From the NCBI GenBank assembly GCA_016787295.1, contig JAEUUX010000273.1, positions 1 through 32,217 of the forward strand: a DNA stretch of 32,217 bases, in the 5' to 3' direction. The stretch comes from Chitinophagales bacterium (GTDB lineage: Bacteria; Bacteroidota; Bacteroidia; Chitinophagales; UBA2359). The position numbers were made by a program, and so were the translations under genes. Numbering within the stretch: the stretch's first letter is position 1; every line of letters starts with the position of its first letter. The notes under the pieces are model-generated. The model had not been told where the DNA came from, ran no database searches, and saw only the letters and a program-made list of their open reading frames with translations. Positions 21,566-30,889 of this stretch are shown here, piece by piece.

Positions 21566-21781
21566 TGGTGTTAAGGAGTGCGGGCGAGGTGTTGGTTTAA
21601 TAGGCTTTTTTTTGTGATTGTCGATGAGCAAAAATGGTAGTGGTTCGTTTTGTTTTGTTCGGTGCTATAAGGAGTGTCGGATTATTGAATAGTGGTGGTG
21701 TTGGTGCTTAGTAAAGCAGGGTGATTTGGGGTAATGACATTAGGTAGTGGTGTAGTGACAATAGCAATAAGGTGTTTGTAT

Positions 21782-21903
21782 TGTTCGAGTGGCGAAGCGC
21801 GTTAGGGATACGGAGGGTGGCGTTAGCCAGTGCGGAGAGCAACGCAGCACCAAGCGTAGCGAAGCCCGCAGCAGCCCGACCCGCATGGGAACGCCCAAAA
21901 AAT
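21782..21903. repeat. Structured intergenic repeat R3, copy 1
   Basis: It begins GGCGAAGCGCGTTAGGGAT and ends AGCCCGACCCGCATGGGAA then CGCCCAAAA. The ends can pair (GGCG/CGCC, GTTAGGG/CCCGAC). The core has its own stem, GGTGGCGTT...AACGC..CACC. The second copy at 23745-23855 shares both ends but has a different core. The minus-strand open frame across it is not a gene. Confidence 0.7.
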
Positions 21904-22090
21904 ATAACTGCTTTTAAGCATATTGAGTGCCGTTTGCCTGATTCGTAATGCCATTTTTATGGTGGCATATATCGGTTTGTTGGGTGTTAGTGGTGTTTTA
22001 GCATTATTTTGGGAGTTGTAAATACGCCCGTTTAATGCTTGTTTTGCTGCTGTTGTTGTTGATTTGAAATGGGTATTGTGCATTTTTTAT

Positions 22091-22834
22091 TCAAATTAAG
22101 TCGGCATAACGGCATACACTTATTAAATAGTGGGTGTAGGTGGTTTGGTCATGGTCGAGAATACCTTGGGCGGTGAGTGTGTTGTATTTGACATAACCAG
22201 CGGCGTGTAATATCTTTTGGTCGGGAGCTATGATGCCTACGTGGGTGATTTTTTCGCGGTCGGGTGTGCTGCTAAAGAAAGCGAGGTCGCCTATACGATG
22301 GCCTTCGAAGGCGATGGTTGTGCCACCGGTGGCTTGTTGGTGGGAGTCGCGGTTGAGTACGATTCCAATGGTGCGGTATAGTATTTGGGTTAAGCCCGAA
22401 CAGTCTATGCCCCACATTGTTCGTCCGCCCCAAAGGTAGGGGGTGTCTAAAAAATAGTTGTTGGCAAGGCTAAATAGGGTTTTGGTGTTGTAGCTGTCGT
22501 TATTGGTGGTGCAGTGTCCGGTGGGTGGCAGCAGGGGGCAGAGTTGTTGGTTAACAAAACTGCCGATGCTCAACATTTTGTTGGAAGGGCGGGCATAGAT
22601 GGGGACTTTGAGGCATTGTATTGGCTCGGTGATGATTTGTTGCTGTATTTGTCCGTTGGGGAGCCAGCCTTCATACAAATCATAATCGGTTTTGATGAAC
22701 GACCAGTGGTCTTGTTGTTCGATGATTTGGTAGGTCTCGCCAAAGAGTAACTCACTTAGCATTTCGGAACGGTGAGAGGGTTCTTTGCGGAGGGCTATGT
22801 GGGATAGGTGGCAACGATTTTGGTAAGAAAGCAT
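22091..22834 (-). CDS. SH3b - NlpC/P60 family cysteine peptidase
   Basis: The 247-residue protein has no signal peptide and is probably cytoplasmic. Residues 1-65 form a bacterial SH3-like domain (HIALRKEPSHRSEMLSELLFGE, GWLPNG) with a second SH3-like part to about 100. The NlpC/P60 domain follows from about 120, with PYLWGGRTMWGIDCSGLTQ (nucleophile Cys145), ITHVGI (His198) and a polar third residue, His210, in ILHAAG. The architecture matches gamma-D-glutamyl-L-diamino-acid endopeptidases of the YkfC type, which hydrolyse murein peptides during recycling. The PD-(D/E)XK-like gene lies 59 bases upstream on the same strand. Heptad repeats fill that gap immediately before the start codon. Confidence 0.92.
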   Translation of the reverse strand: MLSYQNRCHLSHIALRKEPSHRSEMLSELLFGETYQIIEQQDHWSFIKTDYDLYEGWLPNGQIQQQIITEPIQCLKVPIYARPSNKMLSIGSFVNQQLCPLLPPTGHCTTNNDSYNTKTLFSLANNYFLDTPYLWGGRTMWGIDCSGLTQILYRTIGIVLNRDSHQQATGGTTIAFEGHRIGDLAFFSSTPDREKITHVGIIAPDQKILHAAGYVKYNTLTAQGILDHDQTTYTHYLISVCRYADLI

Positions 22835-22836
22835 TG

Positions 22837-22870
22837 TAATGGTTAATTGTTAATGGTTAATTGTTAATGA
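22837..22870 (-). repeat. Heptad repeat ATTAACM before the NlpC/P60 start
   Basis: On the coding strand the leader reads ATTAACA, ATTAACC, ATTAACA, ATTAACC, ATTACA, then ATG. These are four 7-bp units ending three bases from the start codon. Confidence 0.75.
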
Positions 22871-22893: not shown

Positions 22894-23565
22894 TTATTGT
22901 TGATTTGGGGTTTGTTCTTGTACGATTTGTTTGAGGGCTTTTAGCCAGCGAACAATATGGTGAATATCGTCTGTGGTGCCGTCAAATCCTCTGCTGATGC
23001 TGTAGTGTTGATGATGGAGTGCCATAAAATACCAATCTCTGCCCAAGACATAGCAACCATAAACCGTTTTTGTCTCTTGGTTGAGATGTTGTCCGACAAG
23101 CATAGCCGACAGTACTTGTCCTGCTGCATCGCCTTTAAAAGCTATTTCTTTTTTAAATTCATTAAAAGCGAAATAGGGTATTTCGGGTTCTCCATAACCA
23201 GAAGCTAATATCTCATCGGGTTTTCCCATCAGGGTGATATGGGTATTTTGGACAGTTGTTAAGGTTGTTTCTATCGAACGTTGTGCAAATAAGTTGAAAC
23301 GATAAGGTTCTGTAAAGTGTATTAGACTAAATATTGGACCAATAAAATGTAGGCTTAGGTCTTGTTCTTTCCAGTAAAAGGCATTGAGGTCTAATAAGTT
23401 GCGAAGATGGGTACAGGTCATTGTTTCATAGTCGGATAAAACGATGGGAGCGGCACGTTTTTCCCAGTTTTCCAAAGCAGGTAACGGACGTACCCATCGC
23501 AAACCGAAAAGTTTGTCTAATTGCGGAAGTGAGCAATCTACAAAGTTTAATACGGAAGTTTTCAT
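22894..23565 (-). CDS. Hypothetical protein, PD-(D/E)XK nuclease-like
   Basis: The 223-residue protein has no signal peptide or membrane segment. It resembles a widespread family of uncharacterised Bacteroidota proteins that begin with LDKLFGL and have WKEQDLSLHFIGPIFSLIHF in the middle. Residues 114-155 fit a PD-(D/E)XK nuclease core, with GKPD (Asp117), then the half-motif EFK (Glu136, Lys138), then Gln150 in GQVLSAMLVGQ. This fold assignment is an inference from motif spacing only. The end has YGCYVLGRDWYFMAL and a helix, IHHIVRWLKALKQIV. In other genomes the family often occurs alone. Here it precedes the NlpC/P60 gene on the same strand, perhaps sharing a transcript. Heptad repeats lie directly upstream of its start. 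Confidence 0.8.
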   Translation of the reverse strand: MKTSVLNFVDCSLPQLDKLFGLRWVRPLPALENWEKRAAPIVLSDYETMTCTHLRNLLDLNAFYWKEQDLSLHFIGPIFSLIHFTEPYRFNLFAQRSIETTLTTVQNTHITLMGKPDEILASGYGEPEIPYFAFNEFKKEIAFKGDAAGQVLSAMLVGQHLNQETKTVYGCYVLGRDWYFMALHHQHYSISRGFDGTTDDIHHIVRWLKALKQIVQEQTPNQQ

Positions 23566-23570
23566 ATAGA

Positions 23571-23607
23571 GTAATGGTTAATTGTTAATGGTTAATGGTT
23601 AATTACT
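23571..23607 (-). repeat. Heptad repeat ATTAACM before the PD-(D/E)XK-like gene
   Basis: On the coding strand: ATTAACC, ATTAACC, ATTAACA, ATTAACC, ATTAC. These four heptads end about five bases before the start codon. The rest of 23608-23744 is T/G-rich with no gene. Confidence 0.75.
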
Positions 23608-23744: not shown

Positions 23745-23855
23745 GCTCGAAGGGCGAAGCGCGTTAGGGATTGTAAGGGCAGCCGTTAGGCTGGTGCTTG
23801 CACCGTAGCGGTAGCGAAGCCCTGTAAAGCCCGACCCGCAAGGAACGCCCAAAAG
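23745..23855. repeat. Structured intergenic repeat R3, copy 2
   Basis: It has the same ends as copy 1 (GGGCGAAGCGCGTTAGGGAT; AGCCCGACCCGCAAGGAACG then CCC). The core differs, with CAGCC-GTTA-GGCTG and GGTGC-TT-GCACC hairpins. It lies downstream of the beta-helix lipoprotein gene, as copy 1 lies downstream of the NlpC/P60 gene. Confidence 0.7.
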
Positions 23856-23884
23856 AATGTATTCGATAATAGAATCTAAATGGA

Positions 23885-26153: not shown

Positions 26154-29100
26154 CTACATAATAACAATAGCTTTTGTTTTTGAGTTGCCGCATGTTCTTA
26201 GGCGAAGGTAATAGAGACCGTTGGGCAGGTTGGCAACGGAGTATGTTTGGGCTTCGTTGCTGGGGACGGGTAGGGTGCCGTTGTAGAGGGTGGCTACTTT
26301 GATGCCCATGCTGTTGTAGAGTTCAAGCAAAACTTGGGCGTTGCTATTGGGTGGAGTGTTGCTGCTGGTGCTGAGACGGGCGGTGGCGATGACTTGGTCG
26401 GTGACGGGGTTGCCTGCTATTAGCAAATCGCAGTTGCACAAGGCTTCGTGAATGCTGATAAGCCACGAGCCGTTGACGTTGGCAGTGGTGGTGGCTGTGC
26501 AACCGCCTGAGTCGGTGACGGTGACGGTGTAGGTGGCAGTGCCGCCGAGGGCAGTGCCGCAAAGCCCTGTTATGTGGGGAACGGTGGTAGTGCTGTTGTT
26601 GCTCCACTGATAGGTGTAGGGAGCGGTGCCGCCGAGGGCTGCTACGGAAATGGCACCATTGCAATTTCCGCTGGCAGCATAGTTAGCCGCAACTTCTGTT
26701 ACATCAACGCTTAGGGGATTGGCAGGTGGTAGGGCGAAGTGTTGTTCTATATAACAGCCTGTGGCGAGGTCGTTGAGGGTTACGGTGTAGTTGCCTGCTG
26801 TGAGGCTGTCGAGGGTGTAGATGTCTGAAGAGCCGTTGATTATTTGGTTGTAGATGACTGAGGAGTCTGTGATTGCTTGATTGTAGATAATTTGGTTGTT
26901 TCGGGAGACTATATAGTGGTAACAAAAACTGCCATTGTAAGGAATGGCTAAGGTGAGGCTGCCATTGTCCTCAACGCAATTGCTGGGAGGGCTAAAACTT
27001 TCGACGGCTTCGCCGGAGATTTGGCAGTTGCCTATTTGGTGTACGCCTATGACTTTTTGGCGGGTGGTGCAACTGTTGCCGTTGGAGATATTGAGGGAGA
27101 TTAGTTTTTCGCCGGGGTTAGTCCATTTGACGGTGAGTGTGCTGCTGGTGGTGGTGCCTGACAAGATGGTGGCTCCGTCTATAGACCATGTGAGGATGTA
27201 GCCGATGGGCAAGGAGGTGGTGAGGCTGAGGGTGACTTCTTGTTCGGTGGCAATGCCAAATAGGTCGGCGGTATAGGGCGAAAAAGTGGTGCAGTTGTTG
27301 GTGGCGGTGAAGTCTATGGGGGTGTTTAAGGTGGGTGTGGGGCAGAGGGAGGTGCAGCCGGGGAGAGGCGGGCGTTGTCCTGTGGGTAGGATTTGTATGG
27401 GAGCAAAAGAAGTATCGCAATTAGGGAGCGCAGCATCGCGCGTCAAAATGTAATTGACACCTGTTAAGGCAGGGTCGCCTATTAGTTGGGTGATATTGTT
27501 GAATGATTTTATGCCTGGTGACGAGTTCCAATACATCAGGGTGGAATCTATTACATGGTCTAATTGCAACAAATGTCCTAATTCGTGCAAAGCTGTTTTT
27601 TCAAAGTTATAGGCACCGCATTCTGTTGTTTGGTTGGCGAATGACCATTTGCAAATAGTATCATTAGTTCCACAAGGTTTGGAATAGCAATAAACGATAT
27701 CTGCAAAAATCATGGTCGGTTGTTTGATATAGAATTGTCCGCCACATTCTTGAACGTCTATGGTGGTTTTTGCGATTGCCTCGCCAGGATAAGTAAAACA
27801 AGCTTTTTTGAAACCAACTTTTATTCGCTTGTTGAGCAGTCCATCGTTGAGACACAGCGGTTGTCCTCCACATTCTTCTGTAAAACGCACACCTGTTTCG
27901 GTTCGCCAGGTGTTGAGGGCGCGCCGAAAAGCGGCAAGGGCTAATTTGTTGTTGTAGAAGGCGGTATCATATACAAAGGTAAAGTCGCTATTGTTGCCAC
28001 TACTGTCAGTGTCGTATAGGTGGACTTCGGAGTAATTAGGATAATCTACAAAATTGCTAATAGCATAAGGAATTCTTGTGTCTATTGTGTCAGTTACCCA
28101 AAATAGATAAATCGGAGATGGGAAAAATATTACAACAGGTCCTGTACCTGGTACTTTGTTTAATCCTGCATTCAAAGTGTTGCCATTATCGTAATTGTAC
28201 CCACGAGATGGTAATTGTATTGTAATTAAACTGGATGTCCATGTGACAAATTGTGGATCTATTGGGCACCAATCGTATGTTGTCAATCCATAACCACCTG
28301 TATTTGCATTTGCAAAACTAATTGCTCTTTTTTGATTTCCAAAGTTTGCACCTTGAATTACAAAAGTAGACAGACTACTATCTAGCATACCAGCAGGCAA
28401 TTCTGGTGTAAAATATGTAACAGAAGGTTCTGCCGTTGCTGAATCACTTCTTAAATTAGCATTATTGTGTTTTCTTTTTATTGTTTTGTATCGTTTTTTA
28501 GTAATGGTTTTGATATCTTTGAATGTTTGTTTTTCGATAGTTTCGTAACTAATTTTTTTTCCTCTATTTTCTTTTTTTAGTTGCCATTGATAAACTTGTG
28601 CTGTCATTGAATAAATCCCAACCCAGTCTTTTATGAACTCAAATACTGGATATCCATAGTTGCTGTAGTTATTTTCGTAATTTGCATTAATGAAAAATAA
28701 ACAATACTCTCCCATTAAAACAGTATTGTTGTCTTCATTATAGGGTTCTAGTCTATCAGGAAAATGTATATAGGATGTTGGTTTCCCAATTTTATAATTT
28801 TGTTCTTTGTATTTTTCATTGCCCAATACAATGATGTGTTTTTTTACGCCTTTTCCTTTAAAAAGTTTGTAGACTTCCACTTCCACAGCCACTCGGTAGT
28901 GTCCGTCGTGGGTGGGTACAAAAAAACGTTTGGTGATGCTGCCTTCTATTACTACTTCGGCTTGGCGGGTGCGTTCTTCAAGGGACATGTTTGGGATGTC
29001 TTCTTGGGGGGGGGTGATGATTTTTGGGGTTCTGCTTTTGATGGTGGTGTCGGCGGTAGCACTACTGTTTCTGTTGTTGGCAGTAGCGCCTGTGGTAGTG

Positions 29101-29213
29101 TTTGTGATGGTCGTTGTTTGTGCAAAGATCATTGAGAAAGGGGCAACTAAGTATTCTGCGAGGCTATTACATACCAAGTATGTAAGAACAGCCGTAAATA
29201 ATAGTTTTCTCAT
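26154..29213 (-). CDS. Matrixin-like zinc metalloprotease (metzincin) with SprB repeat and T9SS sorting domain
   Basis: The 1019-residue exported protein has a signal peptide ending SMIFAQ. Residues 75-130 form a beta-domain common at the N-terminus of Bacteroidota matrixins (SLEERTRQAEVVIEG, EVYKLFKGKGVKKHIIVLG). Residues about 265-400 hold an IPT/TIG-like segment (FVIQGANFG). The catalytic domain follows, with zinc site HELGHLLQLDH (His543, Glu544, His547, His553) and a Met-turn, STLMYW (Met560). Ig-like and SprB domains (about 630-930) and a type-A T9SS sorting domain (LYNSMGIKVATLYNGTL to the end) complete it. Protein hydrolysis at the cell surface is inferred. The coding strand carries a C9 run at residues 67-70. 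Its first 466 bp (including leader) and a later 245-bp stretch are nearly identical to the truncated gene just upstream, while the segment between is not. Confidence 0.9.
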   Translation of the reverse strand: MRKLLFTAVLTYLVCNSLAEYLVAPFSMIFAQTTTITNTTTGATANNRNSSATADTTIKSRTPKIITPPQEDIPNMSLEERTRQAEVVIEGSITKRFFVPTHDGHYRVAVEVEVYKLFKGKGVKKHIIVLGNEKYKEQNYKIGKPTSYIHFPDRLEPYNEDNNTVLMGEYCLFFINANYENNYSNYGYPVFEFIKDWVGIYSMTAQVYQWQLKKENRGKKISYETIEKQTFKDIKTITKKRYKTIKRKHNNANLRSDSATAEPSVTYFTPELPAGMLDSSLSTFVIQGANFGNQKRAISFANANTGGYGLTTYDWCPIDPQFVTWTSSLITIQLPSRGYNYDNGNTLNAGLNKVPGTGPVVIFFPSPIYLFWVTDTIDTRIPYAISNFVDYPNYSEVHLYDTDSSGNNSDFTFVYDTAFYNNKLALAAFRRALNTWRTETGVRFTEECGGQPLCLNDGLLNKRIKVGFKKACFTYPGEAIAKTTIDVQECGGQFYIKQPTMIFADIVYCYSKPCGTNDTICKWSFANQTTECGAYNFEKTALHELGHLLQLDHVIDSTLMYWNSSPGIKSFNNITQLIGDPALTGVNYILTRDAALPNCDTSFAPIQILPTGQRPPLPGCTSLCPTPTLNTPIDFTATNNCTTFSPYTADLFGIATEQEVTLSLTTSLPIGYILTWSIDGATILSGTTTSSTLTVKWTNPGEKLISLNISNGNSCTTRQKVIGVHQIGNCQISGEAVESFSPPSNCVEDNGSLTLAIPYNGSFCYHYIVSRNNQIIYNQAITDSSVIYNQIINGSSDIYTLDSLTAGNYTVTLNDLATGCYIEQHFALPPANPLSVDVTEVAANYAASGNCNGAISVAALGGTAPYTYQWSNNSTTTVPHITGLCGTALGGTATYTVTVTDSGGCTATTTANVNGSWLISIHEALCNCDLLIAGNPVTDQVIATARLSTSSNTPPNSNAQVLLELYNSMGIKVATLYNGTLPVPSNEAQTYSVANLPNGLYYLRLRTCGNSKTKAIVIM
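27787..28034 (-). repeat. Direct repeat arm B, copy 1 (partner 29298-29533)
   Basis: These roughly 245 bp encode YSEVHLYDTDSSGNNSDFTF through LLNKRIKVG to ACFTYP. The partner differs by about four bases in 218 and lacks nine bases (Phe-Lys-Lys). Identity ends abruptly at both sides. Confidence 0.88.
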
Positions 29214-29280
29214 AGTTCTACGAATAATTTTTGTTTATTTTATTTAGATGAGAGATTTTGTTTGGATAGTTGTTAAGGTA
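28815..29280 (-). repeat. Direct repeat arm A, copy 1 (partner 30368-30833)
   Basis: These 466 bp cover the 67-base leader and about the first 133 codons. They align without gaps to 30368-30833, with about 15 mismatches by hand count. The leader starts CTACCTTAAC on the minus strand, a partial match to the -7 box that both copies keep. Confidence 0.9.
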
Positions 29281-29290
29281 GGTTTGTCTA

Positions 29291-30766
29291 TTAGTTGGGA
29301 TAAGTAAAACAAGCTCCAACTTTTATTCGCTTGTTGAGCAGTCCATCGTTGAGACACAGCGGTTGTCCTCCACATTCTTCTGTAAAACGCACGCCTGTTT
29401 CGGTTCGCCAGGTGTTGAGGGCGCGCCGAAAAGCGGCAAGGGCTAATTTGTTATTGTAGAAGGCGGTATCATATACAAAGGTAAAGTCGCTATTGTTGCC
29501 ACTACTGTCAGTGTCATATAGGTGGAGTTCGGAATAGTCTACGAGGTTGGTATAGTTCGTGACGCTGTAGTTGATGACGGGGTCTTCTTGTTGGTTGGGG
29601 GTTTCTATAAATTCTACATAATAAGGTGCAGGGGCAGGAAAAGCAATTTGAAGTATTCCGCTGCCTGGTATCATGTTCTGTCCATTAATATTGTCATGGG
29701 CTGGGGTGGGGTCGGTGTAATATGAACCTCTTGAGGGTATTTTGATTACAATTGAAGTCGGTTCCCATGTAGTCACGAATTGAGGTGAAATAGGTACTAA
29801 ATCCTTGGTGCCATTGCTAAAAAAGCCGCCAGAATTAGCATTGATAAGAAAAATTTGTCTTTTGGTAGTTCCTAAATTTTGTCCATGTATCGTTAGCACA
29901 GACTCTTGGTCGTTAAGATGCCCTGATGCAATAATATCAGGAGATACACTTGTTATAACAGGTATTTGGCTTTCGCTGTAGGCAGACCTAATTGTTTTGG
30001 ATAGTTCGATGTATGTTTTTCTTCTTTTTAGTGTTTTAAATTTCTTGCCTGTATATTGTTGTAATTTTTTGTAATGTCTTTGATCAACGGTATCTAACTT
30101 TACCATAAATGGTACATTTCTTTCAGAAAATACAACCCCTATTGCTTCCATGTGAGATCCATATCTTCCACTATTATCGTCAATAAATTGGAAAATAGGG
30201 TAATGCTGTTTTTTTAATAGTACAGATGCCGTAGGTTGTTGTAAGAATAAGATAATAAAGCCTGAATGACAAGGTTCATCAGTAGGGCACGGCTTTAATG
30301 ACTTAATAAAGTCAGGTTTGATGGAATAGGGATTATCATCTTCTTTGTACTCGTCTGTGGCGTAATCTTCATTGCCCAATACAATGATGTGTTTTTTTAC
30401 GCCTTTTCCTTTAAAAAGTTTGTAGACTTCCACTTCCACAGCCACTCGGTAGTGTCCGTCGTGGGTGGGTACAAAAAAACGTTTGGTGATGCGCCCTTCT
30501 ATTACTACTTCGGCTTGGCGGGTGCGTTCTTCAAGGGACATTTTTGGGATGTCTTCTTGTGGGGTGGTGATGATTTTGGGGGTTTTGCTTTTGATGGTGG
30601 TGTCGGCGGTAGCACTACTGTTCCTGTTGTTGGCAGTAGCGCCTGTGGTAGTGTTTGTGATGGTCGTTGTTTGTGCAAAGACTGTTGAGAAAGGGGCAAC
30701 TAAGTATTCTGCGAGGCTATTACATACCAAGTATGTGAGAACAGCCGTAAATAATAGTTTTCTCAT
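29291..30766 (-). CDS. Truncated matrixin paralogue without catalytic site or sorting domain
   Basis: The 491-residue frame has the same signal peptide and N-terminal domain as the intact matrixin downstream, almost base for base. At LGNE it diverges: residues about 134-412 are only remotely similar (an IPT/TIG-like VLTIHGQNLG is recognisable). It returns to near-identity at YSELHLYDTDSS and ends at ACFTYPN, just before the region where the intact protein carries HELGH. It therefore lacks the zinc site, the SprB domain and the T9SS tail. The stop comes from fusion to a 17-bp filler followed by the intact gene's leader. Two readings are possible: a decaying tandem duplicate, or a donor cassette for the intact gene. 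As a protein it could be exported to the periplasm but not secreted by T9SS. Confidence 0.85.
   Translation of the reverse strand: MRKLLFTAVLTYLVCNSLAEYLVAPFSTVFAQTTTITNTTTGATANNRNSSATADTTIKSKTPKIITTPQEDIPKMSLEERTRQAEVVIEGRITKRFFVPTHDGHYRVAVEVEVYKLFKGKGVKKHIIVLGNEDYATDEYKEDDNPYSIKPDFIKSLKPCPTDEPCHSGFIILFLQQPTASVLLKKQHYPIFQFIDDNSGRYGSHMEAIGVVFSERNVPFMVKLDTVDQRHYKKLQQYTGKKFKTLKRRKTYIELSKTIRSAYSESQIPVITSVSPDIIASGHLNDQESVLTIHGQNLGTTKRQIFLINANSGGFFSNGTKDLVPISPQFVTTWEPTSIVIKIPSRGSYYTDPTPAHDNINGQNMIPGSGILQIAFPAPAPYYVEFIETPNQQEDPVINYSVTNYTNLVDYSELHLYDTDSSGNNSDFTFVYDTAFYNNKLALAAFRRALNTWRTETGVRFTEECGGQPLCLNDGLLNKRIKVGACFTYPN
29298..29533 (-). repeat. Direct repeat arm B, copy 2
   Basis: Partner of 27787-28034, near-identical apart from a nine-base deletion. 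Its lower end is the duplication junction, followed by 17 bp of unrelated sequence (29281-29297). Confidence 0.88.
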
Positions 30767-30833
30767 AGTTCTACGAATGATTTTTGTTTGTTTTATTTAG
30801 ATGAGAGATTTTGTTTGAATAGTTGTTAAGGTA
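30368..30833 (-). repeat. Direct repeat arm A, copy 2
   Basis: Partner of 28815-29280. It covers the leader and first 133 codons of the truncated paralogue. Its C run is interrupted (ACCACCCCA), unlike the C9 of copy 1. Confidence 0.9.
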
Positions 30834-30889
30834 GTATTAGGACAATTTTACGAAAAGAGTGTAGTGATGAAGTTTTTCAGGTACATATA

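Follow-up and report, generated by a model that had tools for sequence, protein, structure and literature searches.

How two adjacent genes can be nearly identical at their ends and deeply divergent in between, and whether such an arrangement serves to vary an exported protease, is the question that this locus raises. The window analyzed here is the entire contig C26 (32,217 bp), one of the 296 contigs in the draft genome of an uncultured Bacteroidota bacterium (5.42 Mb, with 98.3% completeness and 0.21% contamination), and the gene pair sits 1.4 kb from the contig end. The intact gene (26154..29213, minus strand) is an ORF of 1019 aa. Its product starts with a signal peptide and an N-terminal beta region; a linker then leads to an IPT/TIG-like region and the M10 matrixin domain, behind which come a SprB repeat and a T9SS-like C-terminal tail that ends in KTKAIVIM. 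The M10 domain (PF00413) scored 26.2 bits against a cut-off of 24, and the sequence HELGHLLQLDH (codons 543-553, 27555-27587) fits a zinc motif of the HExxHxxGxxH/D type except for a leucine where glycine is usual, before the third histidine region. Judged by this zinc motif within an M10 domain, the product qualifies as a matrixin (M10) metalloprotease. The SprB match (31.9 bits) is above the Pfam cut-off, and the tail is at the right place, with 21.9 bits for PF18962 (Por_Secre_tail; cut-off 27) and 18.2 for TIGR04183 (cut-off 23). A structure prediction made from two sequences reached a mean pLDDT of 29.

The truncated copy (29291..30766, minus strand; ORF of 491 aa) adjoins the intact gene, lying upstream of it in the direction of transcription on the same strand. 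It has the same start and N-terminal region, followed by a centre of its own, and breaks off where the catalytic domain starts. The leader, the ATG, and the signal peptide are retained and are 97% identical to those of the intact gene, whereas HELGHLLQLDH and the T9SS-like tail are missing; Pfam profiles gave no M10 match and a weak TIG match. If translated, this ORF would probably yield a Sec-exported, catalytically dead fragment.

The two genes share two arms, all on the minus strand. Arm A, i.e., 68 bp of leader and codons 1-133, aligns positions 28815..29281 of the intact gene to 30368..30834 of the truncated copy over 467 bp, with 15 mismatches and no gaps. Arm B, the start of the catalytic domain, aligns 27787..28034 to 29298..29536 (248 and 239 bp, respectively) with 5 mismatches and one 9-bp gap, being about 98% identical outside the gap. 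Between them lie the centres, at 28032..28814 in the intact gene (linker and TIG-like region) and at 29534..30367 in the truncated copy (both minus strand), which are of similar length, keep the same reading frame, and have exact matches of 125 and 77 bp at their borders. The earlier note had described these centres as only remotely similar. This calls for a correction, as they are co-linear homologues with 32% identity over 223 aa (E 2e-30).

The synonymous divergence along the pair, whose calculation had been suggested in the same note, was 0.06 (dS) in arm A, with 5.5 synonymous changes in 92.5 sites, and 0.12 in arm B, falling to ~0.07 after dropping the codons around and beyond the gap. 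The centre gave a pS of 0.73, a dS of ~2.8 (saturated), and a dN of 0.77. The contrast between arm A and the centre is extreme (Fisher test, p ~2e-28), whereas arms A and B do not differ (p 0.45 for mismatches, p 1.0 for synonymous changes), and both arms are equal in age. The near-identical arms of these adjacent same-strand genes and the divergence between them were thus confirmed, and chance is excluded. It was also correctly anticipated that uniform drift after a single duplication cannot yield low-divergence arms around a saturated centre. This pattern requires a recombination event, either the import of a centre or the conversion of the arms. Purifying selection alone was considered as a cause of the arm identity and rejected, since the arm A region shares 22-24% protein identity with its nearest homologue and includes a Thr/Asn-rich stretch.

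The 3' end of the truncated copy retains a trace of its origin. Past arm B it reads AGCTTGTTTTACTTATCC, CAACTAATAGACAAACCTACCTTAACA, ACTATCC, etc., the final part of which belongs to the next gene's leader. In the segment at 29271..29299 (minus strand), what is left of the catalytic region runs directly into the intact gene's leader. This segment matches 27462..27490 (minus strand) of the intact gene, which contains the microhomology CTGCCTTAACA, at 25 of 29 positions; the next-best site in the window matches at 19 of 29, and a value of 25 was not attained in any of 1000 shuffles of the gene's 3' part. Excluding the leader bases, the remaining 18 match at 15 positions, a value attained by 3 of 1000 shuffles. 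The stretch 27491..27786 (minus strand) of the intact gene, which contains HELGHLLQLDH, is absent from the truncated copy. A tandem duplication plus a deletion of ~298 bp would be the simplest reading of this scar. The duplication would have spanned ~1.81 kb, from the leader to the late part of the catalytic domain, with an 11-bp microhomology, CT[A/G]CCTTAACA, at the junction, and the upstream copy would then have lost ~298 bp including the zinc site, the out-of-frame deletion creating the stop. The lack of the zinc site and of the T9SS tail had been taken as the mark of a silent donor; both are certainly missing, but the 3' end is explained by the deletion scar. The truncated copy is probably a decaying relic, presumably devoid of function.

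The scar also bears on the age of the pair, because its remnant, although non-coding and not part of the arms, has survived, suggesting a young duplication rather than an old one in which only the arms have been homogenized. An old pair of tandem paralogues, whose ends were homogenized by gene conversion while the centres had become too different for conversion, would also show nearly identical arms around saturated yet co-linear centres, and the 125 bp of arm A beside the centre, which are free of mismatches (p ~0.01 if the 15 mismatches were evenly spread), resemble a recent conversion tract. However, two separate conversions would have to produce arms of the same age, and an old duplication is not expected to leave a non-coding scar that is still 83-86% alike outside the arms. 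The different composition of the two centres and the absence of the pair from the relatives searched argue in the same direction, and we consider this origin unlikely.

Composition gives an indication of which centre is the new one. The GC3 of the intact gene is 0.47-0.48 in the arms and drops within the centre, whose third positions are strongly AT-rich, to 0.22 in one half and 0.20 in the other, and a comparable dip was not found in the homologues of nine other genomes. The host composition was estimated from ~384 kb sampled of its own genome together with the window, a modest sample that comprises 62 host genes long enough to be tested, in 2231 overlapping windows. The raw dip of the intact centre was unmatched in any window of these 62 genes, and the amino-acid-corrected dip reached 0.26, whereas the background did not go beyond 0.127. 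The truncated copy's centre was also considered as an import: its raw GC3 dip is unusual, but the corrected dip (0.095) is equalled in 9 of the 62 genes, and this candidate was dropped, its composition being ordinary for the host after correction. Since the corrected dip is exceptional in the intact centre only, this centre is the better candidate for import; provided that the dip does reflect import, the intact gene probably carries the imported centre and the truncated copy the older one. Against an import, the intact centre shows no abnormality in its codon likelihood, and a divergent donor should have brought divergent arms, so that the crossovers would have depended on short stretches of conserved sequence or on arms in the donor that were similar. 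These data would reverse the roles of donor and recipient proposed in the earlier note, because by composition the centre of the intact gene looks like the newcomer, and the truncated copy looks like what remains of the earlier gene and not like a donor.

The comparison covered the genome itself, 61 relatives, 20 genomes of the family, and 398 genomes of the order. Homologues that share this arrangement of regions were found throughout the order, and 17 of the 20 family genomes have a match, mostly one each, two genomes having two on different contigs. None of the 61 relatives, the 20 family genomes, or the 398 genomes of the order has an adjacent pair. Apart from a 65-bp leader match on contig C151, no third arm or centre was found in the own genome, and neither a donor nor a third centre appeared in this genome, the 20 family genomes, or the 398 genomes of the order; the plasmids and viral contigs searched gave nothing. 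A scan of genome contigs with the whole protein returned mostly matches to the SprB/PKD part and the tail. With the nearest homologue, from genome G011, identity is 51% for arm B, 24% for the arm A region, and 25% for the TIG part, and none closer was found among the 398 genomes of the order. The two centres share 41% identity with each other in the TIG part and are, by these comparisons, each other's closest known relatives. The G011 homologue has an in-frame TAG early in its catalytic domain (L110:3787-3795, G011:C234) and may be broken, or the codon may be a sequencing error.

The draft state of the genome raises an explanation of another kind, namely that alleles of two strains were joined or mis-phased during assembly. 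With 296 contigs and the pair so near a contig end, and with exact runs of 125 and 77 bp that suffice to exchange centres at the k-mer sizes common for short reads, such an artefact has some plausibility. Assemblers, however, join sequences through shared words, and the junction here holds an unshared scar of duplication and deletion. Moreover, the contamination is low (0.21%), no allele of either gene was found on other contigs of the genome, and mis-phasing may exchange centres but cannot alone create a tandem with two of them. We regard such an artefact as quite unlikely, and the assignment of each centre to its copy is what mis-phasing could have altered.

With moderate confidence, we favor a history in which the gene was recently duplicated in tandem, the extra copy lost its catalytic site, and one centre, probably that of the intact gene, gave way to a divergent homologue. 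The ancestral state would have been a single gene for an exported TIG-matrixin protease, adjacent pairs being found nowhere in the family. Around or after the duplication, homologous recombination would have replaced one centre, most likely that of the intact downstream copy, and the incoming sequence would be an AT-rich divergent homologue from another lineage. An equivalent route would be the formation of the tandem by joining two alleles that already differed in their centres. Both the order of these events and the donor are what we infer from the pattern.

The earlier note had gone further and proposed an expression gene and a silent donor copy, between which recombination across the arms would swap the TIG-like, exposed centre. 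The geometry would allow it: arms of 467 and ~240 bp surround similar-length in-frame centres, a double crossover would give an intact protein, and the truncated copy lacks the catalytic site. The donors of silent-donor gene conversion systems are devoid of expression signals, but this putative donor has a leader, a start codon, and a signal peptide. Such systems also have several donor copies, and here there are two copies in all in the genome, i.e., one putative donor and no further centres. The variable parts, with saturated synonymous sites and 32% protein identity, are hardly fit for segmental mosaics. What truncated the copy was an out-of-frame deletion, by composition the newcomer would be the centre of the intact gene, and the arrangement is absent from the relatives searched. 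The proposal is therefore not supported, given the two copies, the preserved leader and start, and a scar that explains the 3' end, and no third arm or centre was encountered in the own genome and no third centre in the family and order genomes searched; we regard it as highly improbable. The arms are of a length at which recombination could move a centre in frame. That the TIG-containing centre is an exchangeable cassette between constant arms across strains, with the truncated copy as a possible reservoir, seems to us very unlikely.

The leader has a counterpart elsewhere in the genome. At C151:819-883 (L198), an unrelated small T9SS cargo gene is preceded by a stretch of 65 bp that comprises 44 bp of leader, the ATG, and the first codons and is 92% identical to both copies; a further copy was not found in the genome. 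Such sharing was rare among the 244 gene starts sampled, and no convincing copy of the leader was found in the family genomes. A widespread regulatory motif was considered and discarded, since near-matches in the genome are no commoner than those of a reversed control pattern, i.e., at chance level. Within the window, an AT-rich leader of 33 bp, built of TTAACCATTAACAATTAACC-like units, is common to two neighbouring genes that are unrelated to each other (22834-22870 and 23565-23600; 97% identical). The window holds other repeats as well. A dispersed element of ~122 bp (21781-21904), with GGGCG...CGCCC ends, is 94-97% identical at at least 40 sites of the genome and showed no Rfam match and no unusual fold; a second one of ~110 bp (23747-23858), with ends related to those of the first, occurs in many of the sampled stretches. 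One gene (593-1390) is built of 66-bp (22-codon) direct repeats, and the contig end (32046-32217) carries three times the palindromic unit AACCCTGAAAGGGTGA.

Among known exported proteases, the KLIKK proteases of Tannerella forsythia (karilysin, mirolysin, miropsins, and others) are T9SS-type exported proteases of Bacteroidota, karilysin being a matrixin, and their clustered genes have near-identical segments around unique ones and an AT-rich tract of ~50 bp before the start codon (PMC4404884). The pair described here resembles them in encoding an exported matrixin, in the near-identical segments around unique ones, and in the AT-rich tract before the start (PMC4404884), and this tract is the closest known parallel to the leader found here. 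However, the KLIKK proteases share a C-terminal domain and a 30-residue motif and end in KLIKK (PMC4404884), whereas our pair has in common the leader, 133 N-terminal codons, and the first part of the catalytic domain; the intact protein has no C-terminal domain ending in KLIKK and terminates in AIVIM.

A complete gene beside an incomplete homologue with common flanks also recalls Borrelia vlsE (PMC11499132) and Neisseria pilE-pilS (PMC4023411). These systems have several donors, and the vls cassettes are ~90% identical to the expressed cassette region (PMC11499132), whereas here a single copy, with its leader and start kept, shows 32% protein identity in the centre. The present evidence is that of one recombination history, a gene patchwork, and not of a mechanism or a working switch. 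Flagellins offer another likeness, having constant ends and an extremely divergent centre in an exposed protein, with the difference that many alleles are found there in many strains and two centres here in one genome (PMC7018530). If the centre of the intact gene was imported, this uncultured Bacteroidota lineage would exchange exposed modules of secreted proteases while their ends stay constant, a trait known from flagellins and surface antigens, and in the truncated copy the earlier module would survive as a dated record.
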